From positions 434,001 through 498,000 of the forward strand of contig JADILM010000005.1 in the NCBI GenBank assembly GCA_016617785.1: a stretch of DNA of 64,000 bases, in the 5' to 3' direction. Position numbers and translations under genes: made by a program. This document shows positions 29,939-50,484 of this stretch, piece after piece. The stretch comes from Sporobolomyces roseus (taxonomy: Eukaryota > Basidiomycota > Microbotryomycetes > Sporidiobolales > Sporidiobolaceae). How positions within the stretch are numbered: position 1 is the first letter of the stretch; every line of letters begins with the position of its first letter. The notes below the pieces were generated by a model. That model was not told where the DNA came from. It ran no database searches and saw only the letters and a program-made list of their open reading frames with translations.

Positions 29939-31128
29939 ATGCTTCTCTACAAGGATATCATCACCGGTGACGAGCTCATCTCTGACGCTTACGACGTGAG
30001 TTATAACAGAATTCGGGCTTGGAAGAGCTGTTCAGACGAGAAACCGGGTGAATTTGGAGCAGAAAGGAAATTCAACGTAAAGTCGGGAAAAGATCAGCGA
30101 ACATGAGCGGGAGAAGGCAAAGGCTTCCAGAGAAAGTTATTGTGGGACTGTACGGACCATCCAGCGTGAATGAACGGGGCGGAATGATCAAGTTGAATGA
30201 ACGCGATTACGGATCAACGTGTGAATTTTCGAAACCTCTCTTTTGACCGTACTGACTCTCTTTGTCGCTTTTTCTTGACAGCTTTCCGAAGTTGATGGTG
30301 TTGTCTACGAGGCCGACTGCCACATGATCACCCTCCGAGAGGGAAACGTCGACATCGGTGCCAACGCTTCCGCTGAGGAGGCTCCTGAAGAGCTCGCTGA
30401 GGGAGAGACCCAAGTCAACAACATTGTCCACTCTTTCCGTCTCACTGAGACTCAATTCGACAAGAAGTCTTACCTCACCTACCTCAAGGGATACATGAAG
30501 GCTGTTAAGGCTAAGCTTTCGGAGACCAAGCCTGATGAGGTTGCTGCTTTCGAGAAGGTGAGTCAGAATGTGAGCTTCATGCGGGGAGTGGAACTGATTG
30601 TATCTGTTCATTTCGTGTAGGGTGCCGCTACTTTCGCTAAGAAGTGAGTTTTCTTTTCCTTTCGTTCATTTTCTGCCTTCTTCCCTTCTTTCCGCCTCTC
30701 TGTCAGCTGCGACAGCTGCTGACTTGCTTGTGTGCTTCTAGGGTTGTCGGAAACTTCAAGGATTACCAATTCTTCACTGGAGAGTCTATGGAGTGAGTTA
30801 ACTTCACCTTTTCCGCTTCAGACTTGTACTGACGATAGATTCCTCTAGTCCGGACGGCATGGTTGTTTTGATGAACTACCGAGAGGATGGTGTCACTCCC
30901 TACATGGTTCGTTTGCTCAATCTCAGGACTTGACGGGGGATTTTTCGAATCTTTCGAAATCTTCTCCGTTCTCCGCCTCTTCTTCTTCCTCTTCCCCTGC
31001 TGACTCTCCTGTGCTTAATGCAGATCTTCTGGAAACACGGCGTGAAAGAAGCAAGCTCATTTCAATCTACTTCGTACGCAGTTGAACTCGACACTAACTT
31101 TTTTTCGCATTTCCAGGAGAAACTCTAA
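29939..31128 (+). CDS. TMA19: Translationally controlled tumor protein (TCTP)
   Basis: Abundant, conserved ribosome-associated cytosolic protein that binds microtubules, calcium and translation/stress factors. Seven exons (29939-29995, 30282-30557, 30621-30643, 30742-30792, 30849-30906, 31024-31050, 31117-31128) give 167 aa, the normal family length. Motifs: MLLYKDIITGDELISDAYD, the acidic flexible loop, NNIVHSFRLTETQFDKKSYL (TCTP signature), YLKGYMKAVKAKL, FKDYQFFTGESM, DPDGMVVLMNYREDG and the C-terminus IFWKHGVKEEKL. The last intron (31051-31116) has a GC donor (GAA|GCAAGC), with a CACTAAC branch, T-tract and CAG acceptor; it restores the canonical KEEKL end. Without it the frame would add 22 unrelated residues (SSFQSTSY...). 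The 1562-bp tandem array begins inside exon 6 at 31031. Confidence 0.96.
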
Positions 31129-32592
31129 GCAAATGGCTTCAACTCATCAAGAGTCCTCCTCTCTGTCCTTCCGTCTCAATCTCTACCTTAGAGAGACCCT
31201 GGAACCGAGACTAGACTTGGCGTTTCCCGTGTTTGAATTGGTCTTCTCTGCTATTTTGTGTCGTTTTTTAGGTTTTCTCTCTGTAATCCTCCCTCCCCTT
31301 TACCCACCCGCATTCTACTACACACTTTTGGGCTTTCACTTCACACTCATTTCCCCCCTGACGGCCTCACAGCGTCTCGACTACTCACACTTTCTCTCAA
31401 AACATGGAAATAGGAGCAAACTCTGCTTTTCAGCCTATATCCGACGCCGATTCTCGAGGCGAGGTTTGCTCGGTTTGAACTGTCAAGCACCGTTGCGTAT
31501 TAATCTCATACGTGACGAGCAAGGAAGGGAGCAGCGAGTCTGTCGAATCGAAAGTACGACTCTTTTCGAAATTTGACAGTTTCGTACTTTAGTGTTCGAG
31601 AGACTAGATGTAGAGGAGCCGAGTATGGGTGACCAGGATTCGCTCAGTACTGAATGACTGCTGACCTAGCCGAATCGAGATCAGCTGAGCCTAGAGCAAA
31701 AGGGAGAGTCAGGAAGGAGGGTCAAAGCGAAAAATTGTGCATCTCGACGAGTTTCGCTCCTGTTTTGCTGCAGCTTTTGAGCAGGCTGTGAAGGTAGAGA
31801 ATGAAAAGACGGAAGACGAGCAAGCCCGACTCGAAATCTCGAAAGTGTCGACCAAAGGTACCGTCCATGCCAAAGAACTTTGCGGCCCGTTCCGAAACTT
31901 TGACGCTTCGCTCATAGACTTCGATTTGACAGTCAACGGGTCCTCTCTGAGACGCTACCCAAGACTGATGGACAGAGAAGAGGCCAAGGAATGTCTCCGC
32001 GGCTTGGATTTTTGCAGGATCGAAAAGCGACACTTTGAATTCGAGCTCGCTTCCTGCTCCCTCTGACTATCCGAGCTAGCCAGATATGACTCGACGATAC
32101 CAGGTAACTGAGAGCGACTGTACGAGCAAGTAAGAGTCGAGCAATCGAAAGTCTTACAGTTCACTTGGAATCGATCCGATTCGAAAGGATTCGCTTCGCA
32201 TCGACTCGAATCCGCAACTTGTGAGCAATCCCGCTCAAACTCTGGCAGTCGTCTCGTTTGACTCTCAGAAAGCGTACCCTACTTCAGCGAATGGAGATTT
32301 GTCAATCGTTGGCAAGTGGAAAATTCAAAATTCGACTTGGTCGCGAAAAAGCCGAGAAAAGTCAAGGGGAGATCGATAGACGTGCAGATTCGCCTCAGAT
32401 CTCTCGAACGCTAGGTAGCTTGCTGACAGCTGACCGCAATACTAGATTGATCACAAGGCCCAATTGAGAAGTCGAGACGCTCAAAGCGAGGTCTGTACCC
32501 GATCTCTACTTTTTCGAAAGCCTCGTCCTGCATCACTCTTTTGTGGTGATCTCACCTTATCAGCAGGGCACCGCTCTAGTGTCTCAGATCTA
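31031..32592 (+). repeat. Array unit 1 (functional TCTP 3' end)
   Basis: Founding-position unit, containing the real TCTP exon 6 tail, last intron and terminal exon. It carries the C/C variant pair (GAGGAGCCGAG and GGATTCGCTC near 31616-31645) shared only with unit 11. Confidence 0.95.
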
Positions 32593-34154
32593 GGAAACAC
32601 GGCGTGAAAGAAGCAAGCTCATTTCAATCTACTTCGTACGCAGTTGAACTCGACACTAACTTTTTTTCGCATTTCCAGGAGAAACTCTAAGCAAATGGCT
32701 TCAACTCATCAAGAGTCCTCCTCTCTGTCCTTCCGTCTCAATCTCTACCTTAGAGAGACCCTGGAACCGAGACTAGACTTGGCGTTTCCCGTGTTTGAAT
32801 TGGTCTTCTCTGCTATTTTGTGTCGTTTTTTAGGTTTTCTCTCTGTAATCCTCCCTCCCCTTTACCCACCCGCATTCTACTACACACTTTTGGGCTTTCA
32901 CTTCACACTCATTTCCCCCCTGACGGCCTCACAGCGTCTCGACTACTCACACTTTCTCTCAAAACATGGAAATAGGAGCAAACTCTGCTTTTCAGCCTAT
33001 ATCCGACGCCGATTCTCGAGGCGAGGTTTGCTCGGTTTGAACTGTCAAGCACCGTTGCGTATTAATCTCATACGTGACGAGCAAGGAAGGGAGCAGCGAG
33101 TCTGTCGAATCGAAAGTACGACTCTTTTCGAAATTTGACAGTTTCGTACTTTAGTGTTCGAGAGACTAGATGTAGAGGAGTCGAGTATGGGTGACCAGGA
33201 TTTGCTCAGTACTGAATGACTGCTGACCTAGCCGAATCGAGATCAGCTGAGCCTAGAGCAAAAGGGAGAGTCAGGAAGGAGGGTCAAAGCGAAAAATTGT
33301 GCATCTCGACGAGTTTCGCTCCTGTTTTGCTGCAGCTTTTGAGCAGGCTGTGAAGGTAGAGAATGAAAAGACGGAAGACGAGCAAGCCCGACTCGAAATC
33401 TCGAAAGTGTCGACCAAAGGTACCGTCCATGCCAAAGAACTTTGCGGCCCGTTCCGAAACTTTGACGCTTCGCTCATAGACTTCGATTTGACAGTCAACG
33501 GGTCCTCTCTGAGACGCTACCCAAGACTGATGGACAGAGAAGAGGCCAAGGAATGTCTCCGCGGCTTGGATTTTTGCAGGATCGAAAAGCGACACTTTGA
33601 ATTCGAGCTCGCTTCCTGCTCCCTCTGACTATCCGAGCTAGCCAGATATGACTCGACGATACCAGGTAACTGAGAGCGACTGTACGAGCAAGTAAGAGTC
33701 GAGCAATCGAAAGTCTTACAGTTCACTTGGAATCGATCCGATTCGAAAGGATTCGCTTCGCATCGACTCGAATCCGCAACTTGTGAGCAATCCCGCTCAA
33801 ACTCTGGCAGTCGTCTCGTTTGACTCTCAGAAAGCGTACCCTACTTCAGCGAATGGAGATTTGTCAATCGTTGGCAAGTGGAAAATTCAAAATTCGACTT
33901 GGTCGCGAAAAAGCCGAGAAAAGTCAAGGGGAGATCGATAGACGTGCAGATTCGCCTCAGATCTCTCGAACGCTAGGTAGCTTGCTGACAGCTGACCGCA
34001 ATACTAGATTGATCACAAGGCCCAATTGAGAAGTCGAGACGCTCAAAGCGAGGTCTGTACCCGATCTCTACTTTTTCGAAAGCCTCGTCCTGCATCACTC
34101 TTTTGTGGTGATCTCACCTTATCAGCAGGGCACCGCTCTAGTGTCTCAGATCTA
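32593..34154 (+). repeat. Array unit 2
   Basis: Complete 1562-bp copy with the T/T variant pair (GAGGAGTCGAG, GGATTTGCTC). The TCTP exon 6 fragment is preceded by CAGATCTAG instead of CAGATCTTCT. Confidence 0.95.
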
Positions 34155-36591
34155 GGAAACACGGCGTGAAAGAAGCAAGCTCATTTCAATCTACTTCGTA
34201 CGCAGTTGAACTCGACACTAACTTTTTTTCGCATTTCCAGGAGAAACTCTAAGCAAATGGCTTCAACTCATCAAGAGTCCTCCTCTCTGTCCTTCCGTCT
34301 CAATCTCTACCTTAGAGAGACCCTGGAACCGAGACTAGACTTGGCGTTTCCCGTGTTTGAATTGGTCTTCTCTGCTATTTTGTGTCGTTTTTTAGGTTTT
34401 CTCTCTGTAATCCTCCCTCCCCTTTACCCACCCGCATTCTACTACACACTTTTGGGCTTTCACTTCACACTCATTTCCCCCCTGACGGCCTCACAGCGTC
34501 TCGACTACTCACACTTTCTCTCAAAACATGGAAATAGGAGCAAACTGTGAACAAGCGGACCGACTCGAACGTGAATGACACGTGAGGAGAAAGAGTCTGG
34601 GGCAAAACTGAACGGAGAAACCGATTCAGAGGAATTGAGCTTGAAGATGAACTTCAACTCTAGAGAGAAACCAAGGCAGATGTACGCCTGGGAAGGGGTA
34701 GGTAGTCGAGTCGATCCGAGTGGGGTGCAGGGAGAGTCGAGGGAAAGAGAGGTCTCACAAAGGTAGAGAGGAAGGGTTGAGTAGAAGTTGTGTAGTGTAA
34801 AAGTGATGATTCCAAAAGCAAGAGAGGAGTCGCTTGAGCGCCTCCTTTATAGTTCTACGTGAGCTATGGTCATCGAACATTCTAGCAAGAAAGAGTCAAA
34901 GGAGTTGGTCTAAGCTGGGCGGAGAGAGACATGAAAAAGATAGAGAGTATCTAAAGATGGCTACAAGGCATATGGGACAAGGGGAATGACGGCGTCGGAG
35001 TCGCAAGGTGCACTCGCATCGACGGACGGATGGAGATAGGAGAAGACGGAGAACGGGGAACGATCATACGGAGATCTCCTTCGAAAGGGAAGAAGAGGAA
35101 AACTCTTTCTTTCGTCGATAACTCGTTAACGCTTCACTGTAGCGAGATGCTCTAGGCAGCATCGTGCTCAGAATCGTCGGAGCATTCTCTAGCTACCCAA
35201 CATGTGAGGATACAGCTGAAGGGGAGGGAAGTTCTTTGACCGATCAAAACGACTTGGAGATATTTTCTCGATCTGTCGGATAAAGACCAGCCGAGAAAAA
35301 CTTCTCGAGAGAAATACTTCTTCGCAACTTCTCTCGCAATGATATTTCAAGCTTTGATACAAAAATACTCAAAGCTCTACTAAATCATAGGACTCGGGAA
35401 GTCGACCCGCTCACACAAACTCTGCTTTTCAGCCTATATCCGACGCCGATTCTCGAGGCGAGGTTTGCTCGGTTTGAACTGTCAAGCACCGTTGCGTATT
35501 AATCTCATACGTGACGAGCAAGGAAGGGAGCAGCGAGTCTGTCGAATCGAAAGTACGACTCTTTTCGAAATTTGACAGTTTCGTACTTTAGTGTTCGAGA
35601 GACTAGATGTAGAGGAGTCGAGTATGGGTGACCAGGATTTGCTCAGTACTGAATGACTGCTGACCTAGCCGAATCGAGATCAGCTGAGCCTAGAGCAAAA
35701 GGGAGAGTCAGGAAGGAGGGTCAAAGCGAAAAATTGTGCATCTCGACGAGTTTCGCTCCTGTTTTGCTGCAGCTTTTGAGCAGGCTGTGAAGGTAGAGAA
35801 TGAAAAGACGGAAGACGAGCAAGCCCGACTCGAAATCTCGAAAGTGTCGACCAAAGGTACCGTCCATGCCAAAGAACTTTGCGGCCCGTTCCGAAACTTT
35901 GACGCTTCGCTCATAGACTTCGATTTGACAGTCAACGGGTCCTCTCTGAGACGCTACCCAAGACTGATGGACAGAGAAGAGGCCAAGGAATGTCTCCGCG
36001 GCTTGGATTTTTGCAGGATCGAAAAGCGACACTTTGACTTCGAGCTCGCTTCCTGCTCCCTCTGACTATCCGAGCTAGCCAGATATGACTCGACGATACC
36101 AGGTAACTGAGAGCGACTGTACGAGCAAGTAAGAGTCGAGCAATCGAAAGTCTTACAGTTCACTTGGAATCGATCCGATTCGAAAGGATTCGCTTCGCAT
36201 CGACTCGAATCCGCAACTTGTGAGCAATCCCGCTCAAACTCTGGCAGTCGTCTCGTTTGACTCTCAGAAAGCGTACCCTACTTCAGCGAATGGAGATTTG
36301 TCAATCGTTGGCAAGTGGAAAATTCAAAATTCGACTTGGTCGCGAAAAAGCCGAGAAAAGTCAAGGGGAGATCGATAGACGTGCAGATTCGCCTCAGATC
36401 TCTCGAACGCTAGGTAGCTTGCTGACAGCTGACCGCAATACTAGATTGATCACAAGGCCCAATTGAGAAGTCGAGACGCTCAAAGCGAGGTCTGTACCCG
36501 ATCTCTACTTTTTCGAAAGCCTCGTCCTGCATCACTCTTTTGTGGTGATCTCACCTTATCAGCAGGGCACCGCTCTAGTGTCTCAGATCTA
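34155..36591 (+). repeat. Array unit 3, split by the LTR-like insertion
   Basis: Complete unit whose length is 2437 bp because of the insertion at 34546-35415 plus a 5-bp duplication. T/T variant pair. It has a private change TTTGACTTCGAGC near 36036-36048 (TTTGAATTCGAGC elsewhere). Confidence 0.95.
34546..35415. mobile_element. Solo-LTR-like insertion with 5-bp target-site duplication
   Basis: 870 bp present in only one of the eleven units. It starts TGTGA and ends TCACA, so it has TG...CA termini inside a 5-bp perfect inverted repeat. It is flanked by the direct duplication CAAAC (34541-34545 and 35416-35420), which is single in all other units. TG..CA ends, a 5-bp duplication and no long open frame are the marks of a solo LTR left by recombination of an LTR retrotransposon. 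A TATA-like CTTTATAG lies near 34845-34852, compatible with an LTR promoter. A non-autonomous DNA transposon is the alternative: imperfect similarity of the ends may extend further inward (GCGG..CGACT), but 5-bp duplications fit LTR integrases better. Confidence 0.8.
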
Positions 36592-38153
36592 GGAAACACG
36601 GCGTGAAAGAAGCAAGCTCATTTCAATCTACTTCGTACGCAGTTGAACTCGACACTAACTTTTTTTCGCATTTCCAGGAGAAACTCTAAGCAAATGGCTT
36701 CAACTCATCAAGAGTCCTCCTCTCTGTCCTTCCGTCTCAATCTCTACCTTAGAGAGACCCTGGAACCGAGACTAGACTTGGCGTTTCCCGTGTTTGAATT
36801 GGTCTTCTCTGCTATTTTGTGTCGTTTTTTAGGTTTTCTCTCTGTAATCCTCCCTCCCCTTTACCCACCCGCATTCTACTACACACTTTTGGGCTTTCAC
36901 TTCACACTCATTTCCCCCCTGACGGCCTCACAGCGTCTCGACTACTCACACTTTCTCTCAAAACATGGAAATAGGAGCAAACTCTGCTTTTCAGCCTATA
37001 TCCGACGCCGATTCTCGAGGCGAGGTTTGCTCGGTTTGAACTGTCAAGCACCGTTGCGTATTAATCTCATACGTGACGAGCAAGGAAGGGAGCAGCGAGT
37101 CTGTCGAATCGAAAGTACGACTCTTTTCGAAATTTGACAGTTTCGTACTTTAGTGTTCGAGAGACTAGATGTAGAGGAGTCGAGTATGGGTGACCAGGAT
37201 TTGCTCAGTACTGAATGACTGCTGACCTAGCCGAATCGAGATCAGCTGAGCCTAGAGCAAAAGGGAGAGTCAGGAAGGAGGGTCAAAGCGAAAAATTGTG
37301 CATCTCGACGAGTTTCGCTCCTGTTTTGCTGCAGCTTTTGAGCAGGCTGTGAAGGTAGAGAATGAAAAGACGGAAGACGAGCAAGCCCGACTCGAAATCT
37401 CGAAAGTGTCGACCAAAGGTACCGTCCATGCCAAAGAACTTTGCGGCCCGTTCCGAAACTTTGACGCTTCGCTCATAGACTTCGATTTGACAGTCAACGG
37501 GTCCTCTCTGAGACGCTACCCAAGACTGATGGACAGAGAAGAGGCCAAGGAATGTCTCCGCGGCTTGGATTTTTGCAGGATCGAAAAGCGACACTTTGAA
37601 TTCGAGCTCGCTTCCTGCTCCCTCTGACTATCCGAGCTAGCCAGATATGACTCGACGATACCAGGTAACTGAGAGCGACTGTACGAGCAAGTAAGAGTCG
37701 AGCAATCGAAAGTCTTACAGTTCACTTGGAATCGATCCGATTCGAAAGGATTCGCTTCGCATCGACTCGAATCCGCAACTTGTGAGCAATCCCGCTCAAA
37801 CTCTGGCAGTCGTCTCGTTTGACTCTCAGAAAGCGTACCCTACTTCAGCGAATGGAGATTTGTCAATCGTTGGCAAGTGGAAAATTCAAAATTCGACTTG
37901 GTCGCGAAAAAGCCGAGAAAAGTCAAGGGGAGATCGATAGACGTGCAGATTCGCCTCAGATCTCTCGAACGCTAGGTAGCTTGCTGACAGCTGACCGCAA
38001 TACTAGATTGATCACAAGGCCCAATTGAGAAGTCGAGACGCTCAAAGCGAGGTCTGTACCCGATCTCTACTTTTTCGAAAGCCTCGTCCTGCATCACTCT
38101 TTTGTGGTGATCTCACCTTATCAGCAGGGCACCGCTCTAGTGTCTCAGATCTA
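36592..38153 (+). repeat. Array unit 4
   Basis: Complete 1562-bp copy, T/T variant pair; no private difference noticed. Confidence 0.95.
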
Positions 38154-39715
38154 GGAAACACGGCGTGAAAGAAGCAAGCTCATTTCAATCTACTTCGTAC
38201 GCAGTTGAACTCGACACTAACTTTTTTTCGCATTTCCAGGAGAAACTCTAAGCAAATGGCTTCAACTCATCAAGAGTCCTCCTCTCTGTCCTTCCGTCTC
38301 AATCTCTACCTTAGAGAGACCCTGGAACCGAGACTAGACTTGGCGTTTCCCGTGTTTGAATTGGTCTTCTCTGCTATTTTGTGTCGTTTTTTAGGTTTTC
38401 TCTCTGTAATCCTCCCTCCCCTTTACCCACCCGCATTCTACTACACACTTTTGGGCTTTCACTTCACACTCATTTCCCCCCTGACGGCCTCACAGCGTCT
38501 CGACTACTCACACTTTCTCTCAAAACATGGAAATAGGAGCAAACTCTGCTTTTCAGCCTATATCCGACGCCGATTCTCGAGGCGAGGTTTGCTCGGTTTG
38601 AACTGTCAAGCACCGTTGCGTATTAATCTCATACGTGACGAGCAAGGAAGGGAGCAGCGAGTCTGTCGAATCGAAAGTACGACTCTTTTCGAAATTTGAC
38701 AGTTTCGTACTTTAGTGTTCGAGAGACTAGATGTAGAGGAGTCGAGTATGGGTGACCAGGATTTGCTCAGTACTGAATGACTGCTGACCTAGCCGAATCG
38801 AGATCAGCTGAGCCTAGAGCAAAAGGGAGAGTCAGGAAGGAGGGTCAAAGCGAAAAATTGTGCATCTCGACGAGTTTCGCTCCTGTTTTGCTGCAGCTTT
38901 TGAGCAGGCTGTGAAGGTAGAGAATGAAAAGACGGAAGACGAGCAAGCCCGACTCGAAATCTCGAAAGTGTCGACCAAAGGTACCGTCCATGCCAAAGAA
39001 CTTTGCGGCCCGTTCCGAAACTTTGACGCTTCGCTCATAGACTTCGATTTGACAGTCAACGGGTCCTCTCTGAGACGCTACCCAAGACTGATGGACAGAG
39101 AAGAGGCCAAGGAATGTCTCCGCGGCTTGGATTTTTGCAGGATCGAAAAGCGACACTTTGAATTCGAGCTCGCTTCCTGCTCCCTCTGACTATCCGAGCT
39201 AGCCAGATATGACTCGACGATACCAGGTAACTGAGAGCGACTGTACGAGCAAGTAAGAGTCGAGCAATCGAAAGTCTTACAGTTCACTTGGAATCGATCC
39301 GATTCGAAAGGATTCGCTTCGCATCGACTCGAATCCGCAACTTGTGAGCAATCCCGCTCAAACTCTGGCAGTCGTCTCGTTTGACTCTCAGAAAGCGTAC
39401 CCTACTTCAGCGAATGGAGATTTGTCAATCGTTGGCAAGTGGAAAATTCAAAATTCGACTTGGTCGCGAAAAAGCCGAGAAAAGTCAAGGGGAGATCGAT
39501 AGACGTGCAGATTCGCCTCAGATCTCTCGAACGCTAGGTAGCTTGCTGACAGCTGACCGCAATACTAGATTGATCACAAGGCCCAATTGAGAAGTCGAGA
39601 CGCTCAAAGCGAGGTCTGTACCCGATCTCTACTTTTTCGAAAGCCTCGTCCTGCATCACTCTTTTGTGGTGATCTCACCTTATCAGCAGGGCACCGCTCT
39701 AGTGTCTCAGATCTA
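38154..39715 (+). repeat. Array unit 5
   Basis: Complete 1562-bp copy, T/T variant pair; no private difference noticed. Confidence 0.95.
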
Positions 39716-41277
39716 GGAAACACGGCGTGAAAGAAGCAAGCTCATTTCAATCTACTTCGTACGCAGTTGAACTCGACACTAACTTTTTTTCGCATTTCCA
39801 GGAGAAACTCTAAGCAAATGGCTTCAACTCATCAAGAGTCCTCCTCTCTGTCCTTCCGTCTCAATCTCTACCTTAGAGAGACCCTGGAACCGAGACTAGA
39901 CTTGGCGTTTCCCGTGTTTGAATTGGTCTTCTCTGCTATTTTGTGTCGTTTTTTAGGTTTTCTCTCTGTAATCCTCCCTCCCCTTTACCCACCCGCATTC
40001 TACTACACACTTTTGGGCTTTCACTTCACACTCATTTCCCCCCTGACGGCCTCACAGCGTCTCGACTACTCACACTTTCTCTCAAAACATGGAAATAGGA
40101 GCAAACTCTGCTTTTCAGCCTATATCCGACGCCGATTCTCGAGGCGAGGTTTGCTCGGTTTGAACTGTCAAGCACCGTTGCGTATTAATCTCATACGTGA
40201 CGAGCAAGGAAGGGAGCAGCGAGTCTGTCGAATCGAAAGTACGACTCTTTTCGAAATTTGACAGTTTCGTACTTTAGTGTTCGAGAGACTAGATGTAGAG
40301 GAGTCGAGTATGGGTGACCAGGATTTGCTCAGTACTGAATGACTGCTGACCTAGCCGAATCGAGATCAGCTGAGCCTAGAGCAAAAGGGAGAGTCAGGAA
40401 GGAGGGTCAAAGCGAAAAATTGTGCATCTCGACGAGCTTCGCTCCTGTTTTGCTGCAGCTTTTGAGCAGGCTGTGAAGGTAGAGAATGAAAAGACGGAAG
40501 ACGAGCAAGCCCGACTCGAAATCTCGAAAGTGTCGACCAAAGGTACCGTCCATGCCAAAGAACTTTGCGGCCCGTTCCGAAACTTTGACGCTTCGCTCAT
40601 AGACTTCGATTTGACAGTCAACGGGTCCTCTCTGAGACGCTACCCAAGACTGATGGACAGAGAAGAGGCCAAGGAATGTCTCCGCGGCTTGGATTTTTGC
40701 AGGATCGAAAAGCGACACTTTGAATTCGAGCTCGCTTCCTGCTCCCTCTGACTATCCGAGCTAGCCAGATATGACTCGACGATACCAGGTAACTGAGAGC
40801 GACTGTACGAGCAAGTAAGAGTCGAGCAATCGAAAGTCTTACAGTTCACTTGGAATCGATCCGATTCGAAAGGATTCGCTTCGCATCGACTCGAATCCGC
40901 AACTTGTGAGCAATCCCGCTCAAACTCTGGCAGTCGTCTCGTTTGACTCTCAGAAAGCGTACCCTACTTCAGCGAATGGAGATTTGTCAATCGTTGGCAA
41001 GTGGAAAATTCAAAATTTGACTTGGTCGCGAAAAAGCCGAGAAAAGTCAAGGGGAGATCGATAGACGTGCAGATTCGCCTCAGATCTCTCGAACGCTAGG
41101 TAGCTTGCTGACAGCTGACCGCAATACTAGATTGATCACAAGGCCCAATTGAGAAGTCGAGACGCTCAAAGCGAGGTCTGTACCCGATCTCTACTTTTTC
41201 GAAAGCCTCGTCCTGCATCACTCTTTTGTGGTGATCTCACCTTATCAGCAGGGCACCGCTCTAGTGTCTCAAATCTA
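39716..41277 (+). repeat. Array unit 6
   Basis: Complete 1562-bp copy, T/T variant pair. Private differences: CGACGAGCTTCGC (near 40431), CAAAATTTGACTT (near 41011), and CTCAAATCTAGG at its right junction, where others have CTCAGATCTAGG. Confidence 0.95.
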
Positions 41278-42839
41278 GGAAACACGGCGTGAAAGAAGCA
41301 AGCTCATTTCAATCTACTTCGTACGCAGTTGAACTCGACACTAACTTTTTTTCGCATTTCCAGGAGAAACTCTAAGCAAATGGCTTCAACTCATCAAGAG
41401 TCCTCCTCTCTGTCCTTCCGTCTCAATCTCTACCTTAGAGAGACCCTGGAACCGAGACTAGACTTGGCGTTTCCCGTGTTTGAATTGGTCTTCTCTGCTA
41501 TTTTGTGTCGTTTTTTAGGTTTTCTCTCTGTAATCCTCCCTCCCCTTTACCCACCCGCATTCTACTACACACTTTTGGGCTTTCACTTCACACTCATTTC
41601 CCCCCTGACGGCCTCACAGCGTCTCGACTACTCACACTTTCTCTCAAAACATGGAAATAGGAGCAAACTCTGCTTTTCAGCCTATATCCGACGCCGATTC
41701 TCGAGGCGAGGTTTGCTCGGTTTGAACTGTCAAGCACCGTTGCGTATTAATCTCATACGTGACGAGCAAGGAAGGGAGCAGCGAGTCTGTCGAATCGAAA
41801 GTACGACTCTTTTCGAAATTTGACAGTTTCGTACTTTAGTGTTCGAGAGACTAGATGTAGAGGAGTCGAGTATGGGTGACCAGGATTCGCTCAGTACTGA
41901 ATGACTGCTGACCTAGCCGAATCGAGATCAGCTGAGCCTAGAGCAAAAGGGAGAGTCAGGAAGGAGGGTCAAAGCGAAAAATTGTGCATCTCGACGAGTT
42001 TCGCTCCTGTTTTGCTGCAGCTTTTGAGCAGGCTGTGAAGGTAGAGATCGAAAAGACGGAAGACGAGCAAGCCCGACTCGAAATCTCGAAAGTGTCGACC
42101 AAAGGTACCGTCCATGCCAAAGAACTTTGCGGCCCGTTCCGAAACTTTGACGCTTCGCTCATAGACTTCGATTTGACAGTCAACGGGTCCTCTCTGAGAC
42201 GCTACCCAAGACTGATGGACAGAGAAGAGGCCAAGGAATGTCTCCGCGGCTTGGATTTTTGCAGGATCGAAAAGCGACACTTTGAATTCGAGCTCGCTTC
42301 CTGCTCCCTCTGACTATCCGAGCTAGCCAGATATGACTCGACGATACCAGGTAACTGAGAGCGACTGTACGAGCAAGTAAGAGTCGAGCAATCGAAAGTC
42401 TTACAGTTCACTTGGAATCGATCCGATTCGAAAGGATTCGCTTCGCATCGACTCGAATCCGCAACTTGTGAGCAATCCCGCTCAAACTCTGGCAGTCGTC
42501 TCGTTTGACTCTCAGAAAGCGTACCCTACTTCAGCGAATGGAGATTTGTCAATCGTTGGCAAGTGGAAAATTCAAAATTCGACTTGGTCGCGAAAAAGCC
42601 GAGAAAAGTCAAGGGGAGATCGATAGACGTGCAGATTCGCCTCAGATCTCTCGAACGCTAGGTAGCTTGCTGACAGCTGACCGCAATACTAGATTGATCA
42701 CAAGGCCCAATTGAGAAGTCGAGACGCTCAAAGCGAGGTCTGTACCCGATCTCTACTTTTTCGAAAGCCTCGTCCTGCATCACTCTTTTGTGGTGATCTC
42801 ACCTTATCAGCAGGGCACCGCTCTAGTGTCTCAGATCTA
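41278..42839 (+). repeat. Array unit 7
   Basis: Complete 1562-bp copy with a mixed T/C variant pair (GAGGAGTCGAG but GGATTCGCTC near 41885). It has a private change GTAGAGATCGAAAAG near 42041-42055. Confidence 0.95.
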
Positions 42840-44401
42840 GGAAACACGGCGTGAAAGAAGCAAGCTCATTTCAATCTACTTCGTACGCAGTTGAACTCGA
42901 CACTAACTTTTTTTCGCATTTCCAGGAGAAACTCTAAGCAAATGGCTTCAACTCATCAAGAGTCCTCCTCTCTGTCCTTCCGTCTCAATCTCTACCTTAG
43001 AGAGACCCTGGAACCGAGACTAGACTTGGCGTTTCCCGTGTTTGAATTGGTCTTCTCTGCTATTTTGTGTCGTTTTTTAGGTTTTCTCTCTGTAATCCTC
43101 CCTCCCCTTTACCCACCCGCATTCTACTACACACTTTTGGGCTTTCACTTCACACTCATTTCCCCCCTGACGGCCTCACAGCGTCTCGACTACTCACACT
43201 TTCTCTCAAAACATGGAAATAGGAGCAAACTCTGCTTTTCAGCCTATATCCGACGCCGATTCTCGAGGCGAGGTTTGCTCGGTTTGAACTGTCAAGCACC
43301 GTTGCGTATTAATCTCATACGTGACGAGCAAGGAAGGGAGCAGCGAGTCTGTCGAATCGAAAGTACGACTCTTTTCGAAATTTGACAGTTTCGTACTTTA
43401 GTGTTCGAGAGACTAGATGTAGAGGAGTCGAGTATGGGTGACCAGGATTTGCTCAGTACTGAATGACTGCTGACCTAGCCGAATCGAGATCAGCTGAGCC
43501 TAGAGCAAAAGGGAGAGTCAGGAAGGAGGGTCAAAGCGAAAAATTGTGCATCTCGACGAGTTTCGCTCCTGTTTTGCTGCAGCTTTTGAGCAGGCTGTGA
43601 AGGTAGAGAATGAAAAGACGGAAGACGAGCAAGCCCGACTCGAAATCTCGAAAGTGTCGACCAAAGGTACCGTCCATGCCAAAGAACTTTGCGGCCCGTT
43701 CCGAAACTTTGACGCTTCGCTCATAGACTTCGATTTGACAGTCAACGGGTCCTCTCTGAGACGCTACCCAAGACTGATGGACAGAGAAGAGGCCAAGGAA
43801 TGTCTCCGCGGCTTGGATTTTTGCAGGATCGAAAAGCGACACTTTGAATTCGAGCTCGCTTCCTGCTCCCTCTGACTATCCGAGCTAGCCAGATATGACT
43901 CGACGATACCAGGTAACTGAGAGCGACTGTACGAGCAAGTAAGAGTCGAGCAATCGAAAGTCTTACAGTTCACTTGGAATCGATCCGATTCGAAAGGATT
44001 CGCTTCGCATCGACTCGAATCCGCAACTTGTGAGCAATCCCGCTCAAACTCTGGCAGTCGTCTCGTTTGACTCTCAGAAAGCGTACCCTACTTCAGCGAA
44101 TGGAGATTTGTCAATCGTTGGCAAGTGGAAAATTCAAAATTCGACTTGGTCGCGAAAAAGCCGAGAAAAGTCAAGGGGAGATCGATAGACGTGCAGATTC
44201 GCCTCAGATCTCTCGAACGCTAGGTAGCTTGCTGACAGCTGACCGCAATACTAGATTGATCACAAGGCCCAATTGAGAAGTCGAGACGCTCAAAGCGAGG
44301 TCTGTACCCGATCTCTACTTTTTCGAAAGCCTCGTCCTGCATCACTCTTTTGTGGTGATCTCACCTTATCAGCAGGGCACCGCTCTAGTGTCTCAGATCT
44401 A
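42840..44401 (+). repeat. Array unit 8
   Basis: Complete 1562-bp copy, T/T variant pair; no private difference noticed. Confidence 0.95.
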
Positions 44402-45963
44402 GGAAACACGGCGTGAAAGAAGCAAGCTCATTTCAATCTACTTCGTACGCAGTTGAACTCGACACTAACTTTTTTTCGCATTTCCAGGAGAAACTCTAAG
44501 CAAATGGCTTCAACTCATCAAGAGTCCTCCTCTCTGTCCTTCCGTCTCAATCTCTACCTTAGAGAGACCCTGGAACCGAGACTAGACTTGGCGTTTCCCG
44601 TGTTTGAATTGGTCTTCTCTGCTATTTTGTGTCGTTTTTTAGGTTTTCTCTCTGTAATCCTCCCTCCCCTTTACCCACCCGCATTCTACTACACACTTTT
44701 GGGCTTTCACTTCACACTCATTTCCCCCCTGACGGCCTCACAGCGTCTCGACTACTCACACTTTCTCTCAAAACATGGAAATAGGAGCAAACTCTGCTTT
44801 TCAGCCTATATCCGACGCCGATTCTCGAGGCGAGGTTTGCTCGGTTTGAACTGTCAAGCACCGTTGCGTATTAATCTCATACGTGACGAGCAAGGAAGGG
44901 AGCAGCGAGTCTGTCGAATCGAAAGTACGACTCTTTTCGAAATTTGACAGTTTCGTACTTTAGTGTTCGAGAGACTAGATGTAGAGGAGTCGAGTATGGG
45001 TGACCAGGATTTGCTCAGTACTGAATGACTGCTGACCTAGCCGAATCGAGATCAGCTGAGCCTAGAGCAAAAGGGAGAGTCAGGAAGGAGGGTCAAAGCG
45101 AAAAATTGTGCATCTCGACGAGTTTCGCTCCTGTTTTGCTGCAGCTTTTGAGCAGGCTGTGAAGGTAGAGAATGAAAAGACGGAAGACGAGCAAGCCCGA
45201 CTCGAAATCTCGAAAGTGTCGACCAAAGGTACCGTCCATGCCAAAGAACTTTGCGGCCCGTTCCGAAACTTTGACGCTTCGCTCATAGACTTCGATTTGA
45301 CAGTCAACGGGTCCTCTCTGAGACGCTACCCAAGACTGATGGACAGAGAAGAGGCCAAGGAATGTCTCCGCGGCTTGGATTTTTGCAGGATCGAAAAGCG
45401 ACACTTTGAATTCGAGCTCGCTTCCTGCTCCCTCTGACTATCCGAGCTAGCCAGATATGACTCGACGATACCAGGTAACTGAGAGCGACTGTACGAGCAA
45501 GTAAGAGTCGAGCAATCGAAAGTCTTACAGTTCACTTGGAATCGATCCGATTCGAAAGGATTCGCTTCGCATCGACTCGAATCCGCAACTTGTGAGCAAT
45601 CCCGCTCAAACTCTGGCAGTCGTCTCGTTTGACTCTCAGAAAGCGTACCCTACTTCAGCGAATGGAGATTTGTCAATCGTTGGCAAGTGGAAAATTCAAA
45701 ATTCGACTTGGTCGCGAAAAAGCCGAGAAAAGTCAAGGGGAGATCGATAGACGTGCAGATTCGCCTCAGATCTCTCGAACGCTAGGTAGCTTGCTGACAG
45801 CTGACCGCAATACTAGATTGATCACAAGGCCCAATTGAGAAGTTGAGACGCTCAAAGCGAGGTCTGTACCCGATCTCTACTTTTTCGAAAGCCTCGTCCT
45901 GCATCACTCTTTTGTGGTGATCTCACCTTATCAGCAGGGCACCGCTCTAGTGTCTCAGATCTA
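44402..45963 (+). repeat. Array unit 9
   Basis: Complete 1562-bp copy, T/T variant pair. Private change GAGAAGTTGAGACG near 45837-45850 (GAGAAGTCGAGACG elsewhere). Confidence 0.95.
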
Positions 45964-47525
45964 GGAAACACGGCGTGAAAGAAGCAAGCTCATTTCAATC
46001 TACTTCGTACGCAGTTGAACTCGACACTAACTTTTTTTCGCATTTCCAGGAGAAACTCTAAGCAAATGGCTTCAACTCATCAAGAGTCCTCCTCTCTGTC
46101 CTTCCGTCTCAATCTCTACCTTAGAGAGACCCTGGAACCGAGACTAGACTTGGCGTTTCCCGTGTTTGAATTGGTCTTCTCTGCTATTTTGTGTCGTTTT
46201 TTAGGTTTTCTCTCTGTAATCCTCCCTCCCCTTTACCCACCCGCATTCTACTACACACTTTTGGGCTTTCACTTCACACTCATTTCTCCCCTGACGGCCT
46301 CACAGCGTCTCGACTACTCACACTTTCTCTCAAAACATGGAAATAGGAGCAAACTCTGCTTTTCAGCCTATATCCGACGCCGATTCTCGAGGCGAGGTTT
46401 GCTCGGTTTGAACTGTCAAGCACCGTTGCGTATTAATCTCATACGTGACGAGCAAGGAAGGGAGCAGCGAGTCTGTCGAATCGAAAGTACGACTCTTTTC
46501 GAAATTTGACAGTTTCGTACTTTAGTGTTCGAGAGACTAGATGTAGAGGAGTCGAGTATGGGTGACCAGGATTTGCTCAGTACTGAATGACTGCTGACCT
46601 AGCCGAATCGAGATCAGCTGAGCCTAGAGCAAAAGGGAGAGTCAGGAAGGAGGGTCAAAGCGAAAAATTGTGCATCTCGACGAGTTTCGCTCCTGTTTTG
46701 CTGCAGCTTTTGAGCAGGCTGTGAAGGTAGAGAATGAAAAGACGGAAGACGAGCAAGCCCGACTCGAAATCTCGAAAGTGTCGACCAAAGGTACCGTCCA
46801 TGCCAAAGAACTTTGCGGCCCGTTCCGAAACTTTGACGCTTCGCTCATAGACTTCGATTTGACAGTCAACGGGTCCTCTCTGAGACGCTACCCAAGACTG
46901 ATGGACAGAGAAGAGGCCAAGGAATGTCTCCGCGGCTTGGATTTTTGCAGGATCGAAAAGCGACACTTTGAATTCGAGCTCGCTTCCTGCTCCCTCTGAC
47001 TATCCGAGCTAGCCAGATATGACTCGACGATACCAGGTAACTGAGAGCGACTGTACGAGCAAGTAAGAGTCGAGCAATCGAAAGTCTTACAGTTCACTTG
47101 GAATCGATCCGATTCGAAAGGATTCGCTTCGCATCGACTCGAATCCGCAACTTGTGAGCAATCCCGCTCAAACTCTGGCAGTCGTCTCGTTTGACTCTCA
47201 GAAAGCGTACCCTACTTCAGCGAATGGAGATTTGTCAATCGTTGGCAAGTGGAAAATTCAAAATTCGACTTGGTCGCGAAAAAGCCGAGAAAAGTCAAGG
47301 GGAGATCGATAGACGTGCAGATTCGCCTCAGATCTCTCGAACGCTAGGTAGCTTGCTGACAGCTGACCGCAATACTAGATTGATCACAAGGCCCAATTGA
47401 GAAGTCGAGACGCTCAAAGCGAGGTCTGTACCCGATCTCTACTTTTTCGAAAGCCTCGTCCTGCATCACTCTTTTGTGGTGATCTCACCTTATCAGCAGG
47501 GCACCGCTCTAGTGTCTCAGATCTA
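45964..47525 (+). repeat. Array unit 10
   Basis: Complete 1562-bp copy, T/T variant pair. Private change CATTTCTCCCCTG near 46281-46293 (CATTTCCCCCCTG elsewhere). Confidence 0.95.
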
Positions 47526-48562
47526 GGAAACACGGCGTGAAAGAAGCAAGCTCATTTCAATCTACTTCGTACGCAGTTGAACTCGACACTAACTTTTTTT
47601 CGCATTTCCAGGAGAAACTCTAAGCAAATGGCTTCAACTCATCAAGAGTCCTCCTCTCTGTCCTTCCGTCTCAATCTCTACCTTAGAGAGACCCTGGAAC
47701 CGAGACTAGACTTGGCGTTTCCCGTGTTTGAATTGGTCTTCTCTGCTATTTTGTGTCGTTTTTTAGGTTTTCTCTCTGTAATCCTCCCTCCCCTTTACCC
47801 ACCCGCATTCTACTACACACTTTTGGGCTTTCACTTCACACTCATTTCCCCCCTGACGGCCTCACAGCGTCTCGACTACTCACACTTTCTCTCAAAACAT
47901 GGAAATAGGAGCAAACTCTGCTTTTCAGCCTATATCCGACGCCGATTCTCGAGGCGAGGTTTGCTCGGTTTGAACTGTCAAGCACCGTTGCGTATTAATC
48001 TCATACGTGACGAGCAAGGAAGGGAGCAGCGAGTCTGTCGAATCGAAAGTACGACTCTTTTCGAAATTTGACAGTTTCGTACTTTAGTGTTCGAGAGACT
48101 AGATGTAGAGGAGCCGAGTATGGGTGACCAGGATTCGCTCAGTACTGAATGACTGCTGACCTAGCCGAATCGAGATCAGCTGAGCCTAGAGCAAAAGGGA
48201 GAGTCAGGAAGGAGGGTCAAAGCGAAAAATTGTGCATCTCGACGAGTTTCGCTCCTGTTTTGCTGCAGCTTTTGAGCAGGCTGTGAAGGTAGAGAATGAA
48301 AAGACGGAAGACGAGCAAGCCCAACTCGAAATCTCGAAAGTGTCGACCAAAGGTACCGTCCATGCCAAAGAACTTTGCGGCCCGTTCCGAAACTTTGACG
48401 CTTCGCTCATAGACTTCGATTTGACAGTCAACGGGTCCTCTCTGAGACGCTACCCAAGACTGATGGACAGAGAAGAGGCCAAGGAATGTCTCCGCGGCTT
48501 GGATTTTTGCAGGATCGAAAAGCGACACTTTGAATTCGAGCTCGCTTCCTGCTCCCTCTGAC
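47526..48562 (+). repeat. Array unit 11, partial (1037 bp)
   Basis: First two thirds of a unit, with the C/C variant pair seen otherwise only in unit 1, and a private GCCCAACTCG near 48320 (GCCCGACTCG elsewhere). Near-identity stops sharply at 48562, after CTCCCTCTGAC. Confidence 0.95.
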
Positions 48563-48912
48563 GCTCTGAGCTAGCCAGATACGACTCGACTATACGAGAT
48601 TGTCGAGAGCGACTGTACGACCAAGTAAGACCCGAGACATCGAAACTTTCACAGATCACGTTGAATCGATCCGATACGAAAGGATTCGCTTCGCCTCGAC
48701 TCAAAGTCGCGACTTGTGAGCAATCCCGCTCAAACTCTGGAAGTCGTCTCGTTCGACTCTCAGAAGGCGTACCCTACTTGAGCGAATCGAGATTTCTTGA
48801 TAGTTGGCAAGTAGAAAATTGTAAATTCGACTTGGTTGCGAAAAAAGCTGAAAACCGTCAAGGGGAAGTCGATTGAGGTGCAAGTTTGCCTCGAATCACT
48901 CGAGCGCCAGTG
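48563..48912 (+). repeat. Diverged half-unit flanking the array
   Basis: Collinear continuation of the unit (GAGCTAGCCAGATA.GACTCGAC, GAGCGACTGTACGA, AATCGATCCGAT.CGAAAGG, TTGTGAGCAATCCCGCTC all recognisable) but only about 85 % identical by eye, against near-identity up to 48562. Homology fades around the CTCGAGCGCCAG word. Open frames of the unit are broken here, for example the 69-codon plus-strand frame meets a stop. Confidence 0.85.
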
Positions 48913-49054: not shown

Positions 49055-50266
49055 CTAAGCTCTATGCCGTTGAAACTCGCCATACTCCACCTCACATCCG
49101 AACTGACCGATCAGGTCAACCACCAATTCACCCTCCCTCTCCATCGTTTGTGAGACCTCGGCTGTTCCTCTCAACTTTAGCATCCGAACCCTCTCCAGTC
49201 TGCATCCTGACGCTTCCGCTTGTGAGCTTCCGGGAGGTCCTCCATACAAGCATCGAAAGACGATAAGGATCGTGTCGAGGAGAGTTTGACCGGGAGAGTT
49301 CTTGAAACCGATTTCGAGAGCTGATTTGACATTCGTCGATAACGTGTGAAGGAAGGGCATCATGAACAAATTGGCTCGAGGATCAGAGAGGTTCGGTAAT
49401 TCGAGGTATCGAAGGGGAGATTCAGCAGTGTTTTGTTCGAACAGGAGAGTTGAGGCGAGGACTTGATCGAGAGTCTCGAACGGTGGCAGGTAGAGTTCCT
49501 CGATGGAAGGGAAGACTCCGGGTACTATGTGGAGGAGAGGCATGAATGATTGAATGGAGTATAGATTCGATAAGTCGAGGATTTTGAGACCGGTGAAGGT
49601 GCCTTGCGCTTGACACGTTTCCTTGCAGAGTTGTTCGATTATAGGGTTCTCGAGAGACTGCCAATGGTTATTGACGAGCGTGAGGGAGTCGAGATGAAAC
49701 TTGAATGAGGATCCTTCGTGCGAGGTGAGAGCTGAACCGATTGAAAGTCGTTTCAAGTCTATCTCGATAGGATGCGTCAGTGGGGCTTCAATGAGAGTAT
49801 TTGCCCTGTACTTACTTGTTAAGCTCTTCCCAGAGAGAGAACGAATCGACATCCCCGAGCATCCCACGATATCTAATTCTTCCAACTTCCCACCTCCGTT
49901 CACCCCAGACCCCTCAAAGTTCCTCTCAATGCACTTCAACAGCTGCTCAGCAAGTTTTCCTTGTATCGTCTCCTCCGTACCGATTCCCCCGTTCCCGATC
50001 CCTCTTCCCTTCGAAGGTTCAAAGACAACGCTTCTAACAGTCCCCGCATGCCTCTTGAATGCTTCAGAATTCACCAGAGATTGCACTTGTTGATCTTGTT
50101 GGAGTCTCAAATCCAGGTACAGGTACTGGTGAGCGACCGGAGTGAGGGAAGGGTGGATCAAGGTGAGGGGAACAACTTGAAGAGGGTCAACGACTTTCGT
50201 AGGGTTCAAGAGTGTACTGAAGATCTTGATCAGTAGCTCTAGTGGTAAAGTGAGGAGAGTAGGCAT
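49055..50266 (-). CDS. F-box-like / leucine-rich protein
   Basis: Two exons (50266-49816 and 49758-49055) in phase give 384 aa. The start is at the ATG reading MPTLLTLPLELLIKIFSTLL; upstream in-frame codons have no ATG. This N-terminus is a typical fungal F-box opening (LP.ELL..IF..L), followed by HPSLTPVAHQYLYLDLRL, the usual R..LAxxxLYrxl continuation, and an irregular Leu-rich body (KLEELDIVGCSGMSIRSLSG, LKRLSIGSAL, LDSLTLVNNHW, LKILDLSNLYS, IEELYLPPFETL), as in F-box/LRR proteins. The likely role is a substrate receptor of an SCF ubiquitin ligase. Substrate unknown. It is divergent from the 538-aa gene, 218 bp apart. Confidence 0.78.
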   Translation of the reverse strand: MPTLLTLPLELLIKIFSTLLNPTKVVDPLQVVPLTLIHPSLTPVAHQYLYLDLRLQQDQQVQSLVNSEAFKRHAGTVRSVVFEPSKGRGIGNGGIGTEETIQGKLAEQLLKCIERNFEGSGVNGGGKLEELDIVGCSGMSIRSLSGKSLTSKYRANTLIEAPLTHPIEIDLKRLSIGSALTSHEGSSFKFHLDSLTLVNNHWQSLENPIIEQLCKETCQAQGTFTGLKILDLSNLYSIQSFMPLLHIVPGVFPSIEELYLPPFETLDQVLASTLLFEQNTAESPLRYLELPNLSDPRANLFMMPFLHTLSTNVKSALEIGFKNSPGQTLLDTILIVFRCLYGGPPGSSQAEASGCRLERVRMLKLRGTAEVSQTMEREGELVVDLIGQFGCEVEYGEFQRHRA

Positions 50267-50484
50267 GTTGAGTGAAGAGGACGAGGTCAAGCTTCGAAAG
50301 AGGTCTGCTTCTGAGGTTGAGGAAGACTGGATCCTGCTTTGCTTCGCGTTTGGGCTTGAAGGAGTCGTCAAGCTGGGTCGAAGTCGAGGTCGAACGCGCT
50401 AGAAGGTGATGTGGAAAATAGAGTTCTTCCTTCACGAAAAAAACTAACTTTTCCTTTTCCTTCCCTCAGTCTTCCTCAGCCTCG

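Follow-up and report, generated by a model that had tools for sequence, protein, structure and literature searches.

A tandem array joining the terminal exons of TCTP to a dispersed non-coding element in Sporobolomyces roseus

The TCTP (TMA19) gene of Sporobolomyces roseus, located in a 64,000-nt stretch of contig JADILM010000005.1 (the whole stretch analysed, hereafter the window), runs at its 3' end into a tandem array of 1562-bp units, and analysis of the unit revealed a chimera, in which about 710 bp come from the end of TCTP and about 810 bp from a non-coding family that is dispersed in the genome. We consider it fairly probable that this chimeric satellite arose when a fragment of the element and the TCTP end were duplicated together, expanded and homogenised, and no function is needed to explain the array. 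The satellite at this single-copy housekeeping gene reveals the pieces from which it was joined, i.e., a dispersed non-coding element and a gene's last exons, providing a natural case of mobile-element debris and a gene end together becoming satellite DNA.

Structure and composition of the array

Self-shift comparison and BLAST revealed exact repetition at 1562 bp across 31031..48562 (+ strand), with near-complete identity at a shift of 1562 and a sole break at an insertion in copy 3, bearing out the first-pass annotation, which had described a 1562-bp array of near-identical copies over this interval. Its count of eleven copies holds for ten full units, one of which is split by an 870-bp solo long terminal repeat (LTR), and in part for a truncated eleventh, which is homogeneous over 1035 of 1562 bp (to 48562), beyond which a diverged tail extends to about 48910. 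With unit numbering starting at 31033, the copies begin at 31033, 32595, 34157 (interrupted), 36594, 38156, 39718, 41280, 42842, 44404, 45966, and 47528, and copy 1 is matched by the full copies at 99.7-100% identity. Eleven sites are variable among the copies, with a mean pairwise difference of 0.17% and a maximum of 0.39%; copies 2, 4, 5, and 8 are mutually identical, copies 3, 6, 7, 9, 10, and 11 carry private variants, and no variable site falls within unit positions 1-321. Tandem Repeats Finder was blind to the array, as its longest period is 500 compared with the 1562-bp unit. The features of the locus are as follows (window coordinates).

29939..31128, + strand: TCTP (TMA19), intact, seven coding exons, 167 aa (exon model and protein matches)
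31024..31050, + strand: TCTP coding exon 6, inside which the array begins at 31031 (exon model, BLAST)
31051..31116, + strand: last TCTP intron (GC-AG type), found in each unit (exon model)
31117..31128, + strand: TCTP coding exon 7 (EKL-stop), without variation among the 11 copies (exon model)
31744..32556, + strand: portion of copy 1 (unit 712-1524) with similarity to the dispersed family, with unit 1381-1439 an unmatched gap (DNA searches)
32582..32601, + strand: unit-to-unit junction, with CAGATCT in common with the exon 6 start, offset by 3 bp
48563..48910, + strand: family sequence forming the diverged tail of copy 11 at the right edge (sequence comparison)
31404..32066, + strand: candidate two-exon open reading frame (ORF) of the unit, 143 aa (gene model)
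34546..35415 (about), no strand assigned: solo LTR in copy 3 (flanking CAAAC duplication)
49055..50371, - strand: converging neighbour ORF, 438 aa (ORF listing)

The TCTP coding exons lie at 29939-29995, 30282-30557, 30621-30643, 30742-30792, 30849-30906, 31024-31050, and 31117-31128, and the encoded protein ends in TPYMIFWKHGVKEEKL. It had 2077 relatives among database proteins at E ≤ 0.001, the best of them (among the best 120 of the 2077) being 89% identical and from Sporobolomyces pararoseus, and the closest proteins among the matches listed were all from Sporobolomyces. TCTP was the only such gene found in the 22.4-Mb genome, with four exon matches that all fell at the array locus. The exon model agrees with the earlier placement of the left boundary inside exon 6: the repeat begins 7 nt into this exon, and each unit contains the exon-6 tail, the last intron, exon 7, and the 3' flank. 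A search of the genome with the TCTP-derived half of the unit gave nothing outside the array. The gene is intact because the first copy completes it. Splicing of exon 6 would leave the protein unchanged whichever of the 11 exon-7 copies served as partner, and a protein ending in TPYMI* would result if exon 5 were spliced to the acceptor of an internal exon 6. As to the donors, the intron at 30907-31023 begins with GTTCGT, that at 31051-31116 is of the GC-AG type, and the remaining four have GTGAGT. For annotators, it should be kept in mind that the repeated terminal exons and the ORF of the unit need not be genes.

For the other half, unit positions 712-1380 and 1440-1524 matched members of the dispersed family, and three segments covering unit 1-720, searched at the same threshold, gave no family match. 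Regarding the unit as a TCTP satellite, as was done initially, is incomplete, given that unit 712-1524 belongs to this family. Dispersal of the unit across the genome, which the first-pass annotation had named as the result that would make the TCTP junction incidental, holds for roughly one half of it; the other, derived from TCTP, was found only in the array.

The dispersed family and duplications around its members

DNA searches located the family at no fewer than 22 places in the genome (at least 22, all on contigs C1-C7), with identities of about 60% to 84% among members and mostly 58-71% to the TCTP unit. Eleven family copies could be aligned over about 330 bp with a mean column identity of 67%, and the motif TTCGACTTSGTTGCGAAAA (≤2 mismatches) gave 38 matches compared with one for a reversed control, 11 of the 38 lying within the TCTP array or at its edge and five in a second family array. 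The latter (C2:439958-444653; L058 2958-7653) comprises four full 1091-bp units plus 332 bp, with a Mo25 gene on one side and a homocitrate synthase gene on the other, both converging on it. Its full units are 99-100% identical to one another, whereas the two arrays are 62% identical over 341 columns, indicating that each is homogeneous within itself in the manner of a satellite. Other family loci contain permuted pieces of the 1.09-kb module, and the genes around family loci are often, though not always, convergent as judged by codon score. Rfam detected no RNA gene in the window and none at E ≤ 1 in 31024-32700, and gave only four tRNA matches on 19 family loci. DNA folding as a cause of breakage was rejected, since z-scores of -2.72 to +1.09 in nine family stretches and -2.02 to +2.01 in three non-family stretches gave no consistent signal.

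One form of the family is a 4842-bp element, 99.8% identical between C5:107049-111890 (L067 1049-5890) and C3:604457-609296 (L068 1957-6796), with a right terminus common to four loci, i.e., these two and two on C4 (about 92% and 83-84% over the shared parts). Its ORFs do not exceed 184 aa, and neither L067 nor L068 shows a visible target duplication. For Helentrons and HINEs, insertion would be expected at TT or T-rich positions, with the target left unduplicated. At the right end, CTCA is followed by T in all four copies, and a hairpin (GCCG-CGAAGT-CGGC), of the 3' kind although with a stem of only 4 bp, lies about 14 nt from this end. Moreover, a 12-bp sequence 5 nt from the left end is matched in inverted orientation 31 nt from the right end, which none of 2000 shuffles reproduced, in keeping with a subterminal inverted repeat of 11-15 bp whose partner is 20-60 nt from the 3' end; the distances of 31 and 5 nt fall within the range given for Fusarium Helitron2 in the relevant part of PMC5148889. 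The family is therefore comparable to Helentrons and HINEs (Helitron2, DINE-1-like) as characterised in portions of PMC4067079 and PMC5148889, with which it shares the non-coding nature, subterminal inverted repeats, a 3' hairpin, the lack of a visible target duplication, and internal direct repeats, and the capture of gene fragments and association with duplication breakpoints reported there can be likened to what is seen around the family. Judging from these termini, the family is probably a non-autonomous Helentron-like rolling-circle element. It is unlike those elements in that the enzyme was not found (the search being uninformative), in that the array is without element ends, and in that the unit holds a host gene's last exons. 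The array is built from an inner module, and is family-derived but not itself a HINE.

Local duplications were also detected beside other members of the family. At C5:1135949-1138220 (L076 949-1483 and 2688-3220), the end of the last intron, the terminal exon, and the 3' UTR of a gene (535 bp) are duplicated across a family member with 98.9% identity, and a search gave no third copy of this segment. The gene has the look of an RNA-binding protein gene, which by eye we take to be Nop4/RBM28-like; two of its frames had no Pfam match, and the frame that covers the second copy gave two weak ones, both below the cut-off. This two-copy version may be compared with the TCTP array as an earlier stage. 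Where the C5 element ends, an adjacent F-box-like gene has 286 bp of its 3' coding end present as a tandem pair with 100% identity. Overall, local duplications (≥200 bp, ≥90%, direct or inverted) were present at seven of 20 family loci (one being the C2 array) in addition to TCTP, compared with none of 11 window chunks of 4 kb and none of eight LTR loci (Fisher p 0.0036 with TCTP, 0.0083 without it), with family loci of 3.2-10 kb set against controls of 1.8-4 kb that were not random, and with C1:3139k left out. The clustering of local duplications at family loci is thus only suggestive. It would be a rather unlikely, if far-reaching, extension that this Helentron-like family repeatedly duplicates the terminal exons of genes ahead of it (TCTP elevenfold, the RNA-binding-type gene twofold, the F-box 3' coding end twofold), giving persistent homogeneous terminal-exon satellites with several interchangeable 3' ends.

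Several further arrangements were observed around family elements. An inverted duplication with 3-kb arms (98%) holding a SET-domain gene surrounds the element of L061 (C6:1399501-1407500), and L064 and L070 show inverted duplications with arms of 461 and 725 bp (100%); in all three, the arms reach the limits of the examined stretch. At C1:4229k, a 309-bp direct duplication (L059 2217-2525 and 4639-4947; 99.7%) flanks family elements and starts inside a tRNA gene match.

Origin and age of the array

The formation of the array most probably proceeded as follows. A fragment of the dispersed element would have lain just downstream of TCTP, and one duplication would have fused the element with the interior of exon 6, the join perhaps being made at the shared CAGATCT, which is present on both sides of the junction and may represent microhomology. 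The product would have comprised the exon-6 tail, the last intron, exon 7, the 3' flank, and a piece of the element, and unequal sister exchange together with gene conversion would then have raised it to about eleven copies and kept these alike. The right edge, adjoining unique DNA, would have escaped correction and drifted to 16% difference.

Evidence for the order of these steps comes mainly from the edge. The tail of copy 11 differs from the inner tails at 57 of 348 sites (Jukes-Cantor (JC) distance 0.185; 84% identical), about a hundredfold above the array mean of 0.0017, and given this gap the founding duplication and the recent homogenisation were probably separate events, the former old and the latter recent. 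In addition, at unit position 796 copy 11 alone has the base giving Q in the ORF, as in the related proteins P0121 and P0123, suggesting that the edge copy probably keeps the older state. With older sequence kept at its edge than in its middle, this one locus seems to preserve a record of the founding duplication as well as of the later homogenisation. The recent amplification proposed in the first-pass annotation fits the present homogeneity of the copies but not the founding duplication, which looks old from the edge distance and from relatives fitting units of 1562 and 1535 bp. Homogenisation by exchange, proposed there as well, is plausible, with C at unit 587 found only in copies 1 and 11 and C at unit 609 in copies 1, 7, and 11.

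The relatives were obtained by comparing the unit ORF with 5.8 billion proteins, which yielded three (P0121, P0122, and P0123), and a profile search returned the same three. P0121 (96% to the unit ORF) is on five contigs, the longest of 1592 bp, and P0122 (89%) is on one contig of 1565 bp; the source label 'lgn' of these contigs presumably stands for Logan. Circular contigs of Logan carry a 30-base repeat at their ends, as stated in part of PMC12424806. Lengths of 1592 and 1565 bp would be those expected of putative units of 1562 and 1535 bp (each plus 30) that are circular or in perfect tandem, the contigs being known by length only. Moreover, P0123, a distant relative on a contig of 32772 bp, is a single ORF spanning the TCTP-derived and family-derived parts of the unit, and such a fusion suggests that the chimera is older than this genome.

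A number of points weigh against the proposed duplication of element and gene end, or against the class assigned to the element. The CAGATCT match at the junction is displaced by 3 bp, the copy number rests on one assembly, and the empty ancestral locus is hypothetical and the age of the events putative. As for the element, its inverted-repeat spacing is outside the 38-60 and 2-4 nt of mite HINEs reported in a section of PMC4067079, its left end is documented by no more than two copies, which are nearly identical, and the exact 11-mer of its subterminal repeat is absent from the window, so that the array lacks element ends. No match to the Rep-helicase (PF14214) was obtained in the genome, in a search that was uninformative because 14 of 14 control genomes were also silent. 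Finally, the edge divergence could also come from the insertion of a diverged circle.

In a second account, a circle of rolling-circle or excised DNA that carried the TCTP end plus the element would have integrated through homology at the 3' end of TCTP, either a single time or as a multimer; this is the main rival for the first step, and we regard it as possible though unlikely. It would account for the permuted pieces of the 1.09-kb module at other family loci, and the TCTP-end/element/TCTP-end and exon/element/exon layouts are those that a single-crossover insertion would give. The inner and edge element tails also differ while the TCTP parts agree, and circular Helitron intermediates and tandem Helitron insertions have been reported (PMC5148889, in the part concerned). 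However, a circle formed from the TCTP locus should match the edge tail, gene conversion accounts for the edge equally well, and no circle was observed.

Selection for the dosage of a small gene, as in a CUP1-like array with the TCTP end as a passenger, is improbable. The 143-aa two-exon model has the best coding score of six frames, its exon 2 is open in 11 of 11 copies, and it has the three database relatives; nevertheless, no annotated or named fungal protein was among these relatives, their ORFs end at different places, and exon 2 is homologous to family DNA. Its codon score of -1.8 is below the 5th percentile (-0.5) of held-out coding stretches (minimum -5.1), and 71% of the open stretches of the window score as well or better. 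With no named fungal match, shifting ends, a poor codon score, and an exon 2 homologous to family DNA, the candidate ORF is unlikely to be a gene. No relative was confirmed when viral sequences were scanned with P0123 and P0121 and prokaryote genomes with P0123. Two Pfam matches were set aside, namely Cas_GSU0053 on the candidate ORF (E 0.0085; 16.5 bits, the cut-off being 25) and a match on another ORF of the unit (E 0.19), and the stretch after the candidate ORF was rejected as coding, with substitutions by codon position of 18/17/22.

It is less probable still that the array serves TCTP, with serial interchangeable terminal exons and 3' ends that would stop transcription before the converging neighbour. 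The 11 identical exon-7 copies, usable without protein change, and the converging ORF at 49055 would suit this idea, but the same family forms the C2 array without terminal exons, and the variant-free unit 1-321 is weak evidence, as about 2.5 variants would be expected there by proportion. Lastly, multiplication of one unit by the assembler, which the mutual identity of copies 2, 4, 5, and 8 might suggest, is hardly credible because of the private variants in six other copies, with the LTR in copy 3 only, and because of the relative P0121 on a contig of matching length (1562+30).

Precedents, the passenger LTR and the neighbouring frame

The first-pass annotation knew of no precedent, which stands for TCTP in the literature found, as no TCTP array and no terminal-exon satellite appeared among the matches listed from open-licence papers, but not for the geometry. 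In Saccharomyces cerevisiae, the S288c-type CUP1 unit includes YHR054C, the sequence of which is that of the last 1 kb of RSC30; the complete RSC30 stands at the array end, and the CUP1 junctions have homology of 3 bp or less, as described in passages of PMC4232551. Like the CUP1 array (Type 1, 1998 bp; units of about 1.2-2 kb) in that account, the TCTP array has its edge inside a neighbouring gene, the terminal part of this gene in each unit, and an intact gene at the edge. Unlike CUP1, where a resistance gene is selected, the TCTP unit is without a convincing gene and has a dispersed element plus terminal exons with an intron. Massive locus amplification without direct selection has been reported in yeast (PMC4856073, in part), and inner repeats of mobile elements can expand into homogenised satellite arrays, e.g., those derived from Ogre, according to excerpts of PMC9659126 and PMC7004042. 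The TCTP array differs from the latter in being small, beside a gene, and built of a unit chimeric with host exons. On this comparison, the geometry of the array has a precedent in CUP1, whereas a satellite of element plus terminal exons appears to be new.

To the right of the array, the neighbour ORF at 49055..50371 gave nothing in Pfam at E ≤ 0.01.

The LTR-like insertion noticed earlier in copy 3 is indeed an 870-bp solo LTR, a single LTR with TG..CA ends and a 5-bp target duplication (CAAAC), with related LTRs elsewhere (eight further matches in the genome among the matches listed, one of them cut by a contig end). It resembles the solo LTR of a retrotransposon in its ends, duplication, and genome copies, and differs in its role, being a passenger outside the mechanism of the array. 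Members of this LTR family also occur at C8:1304908-1312993, C5:473-1341, C8:601-1470, and C11:1-265; a same-strand pair about 7.2 kb apart may represent a full element, and copies are found at three contig ends.

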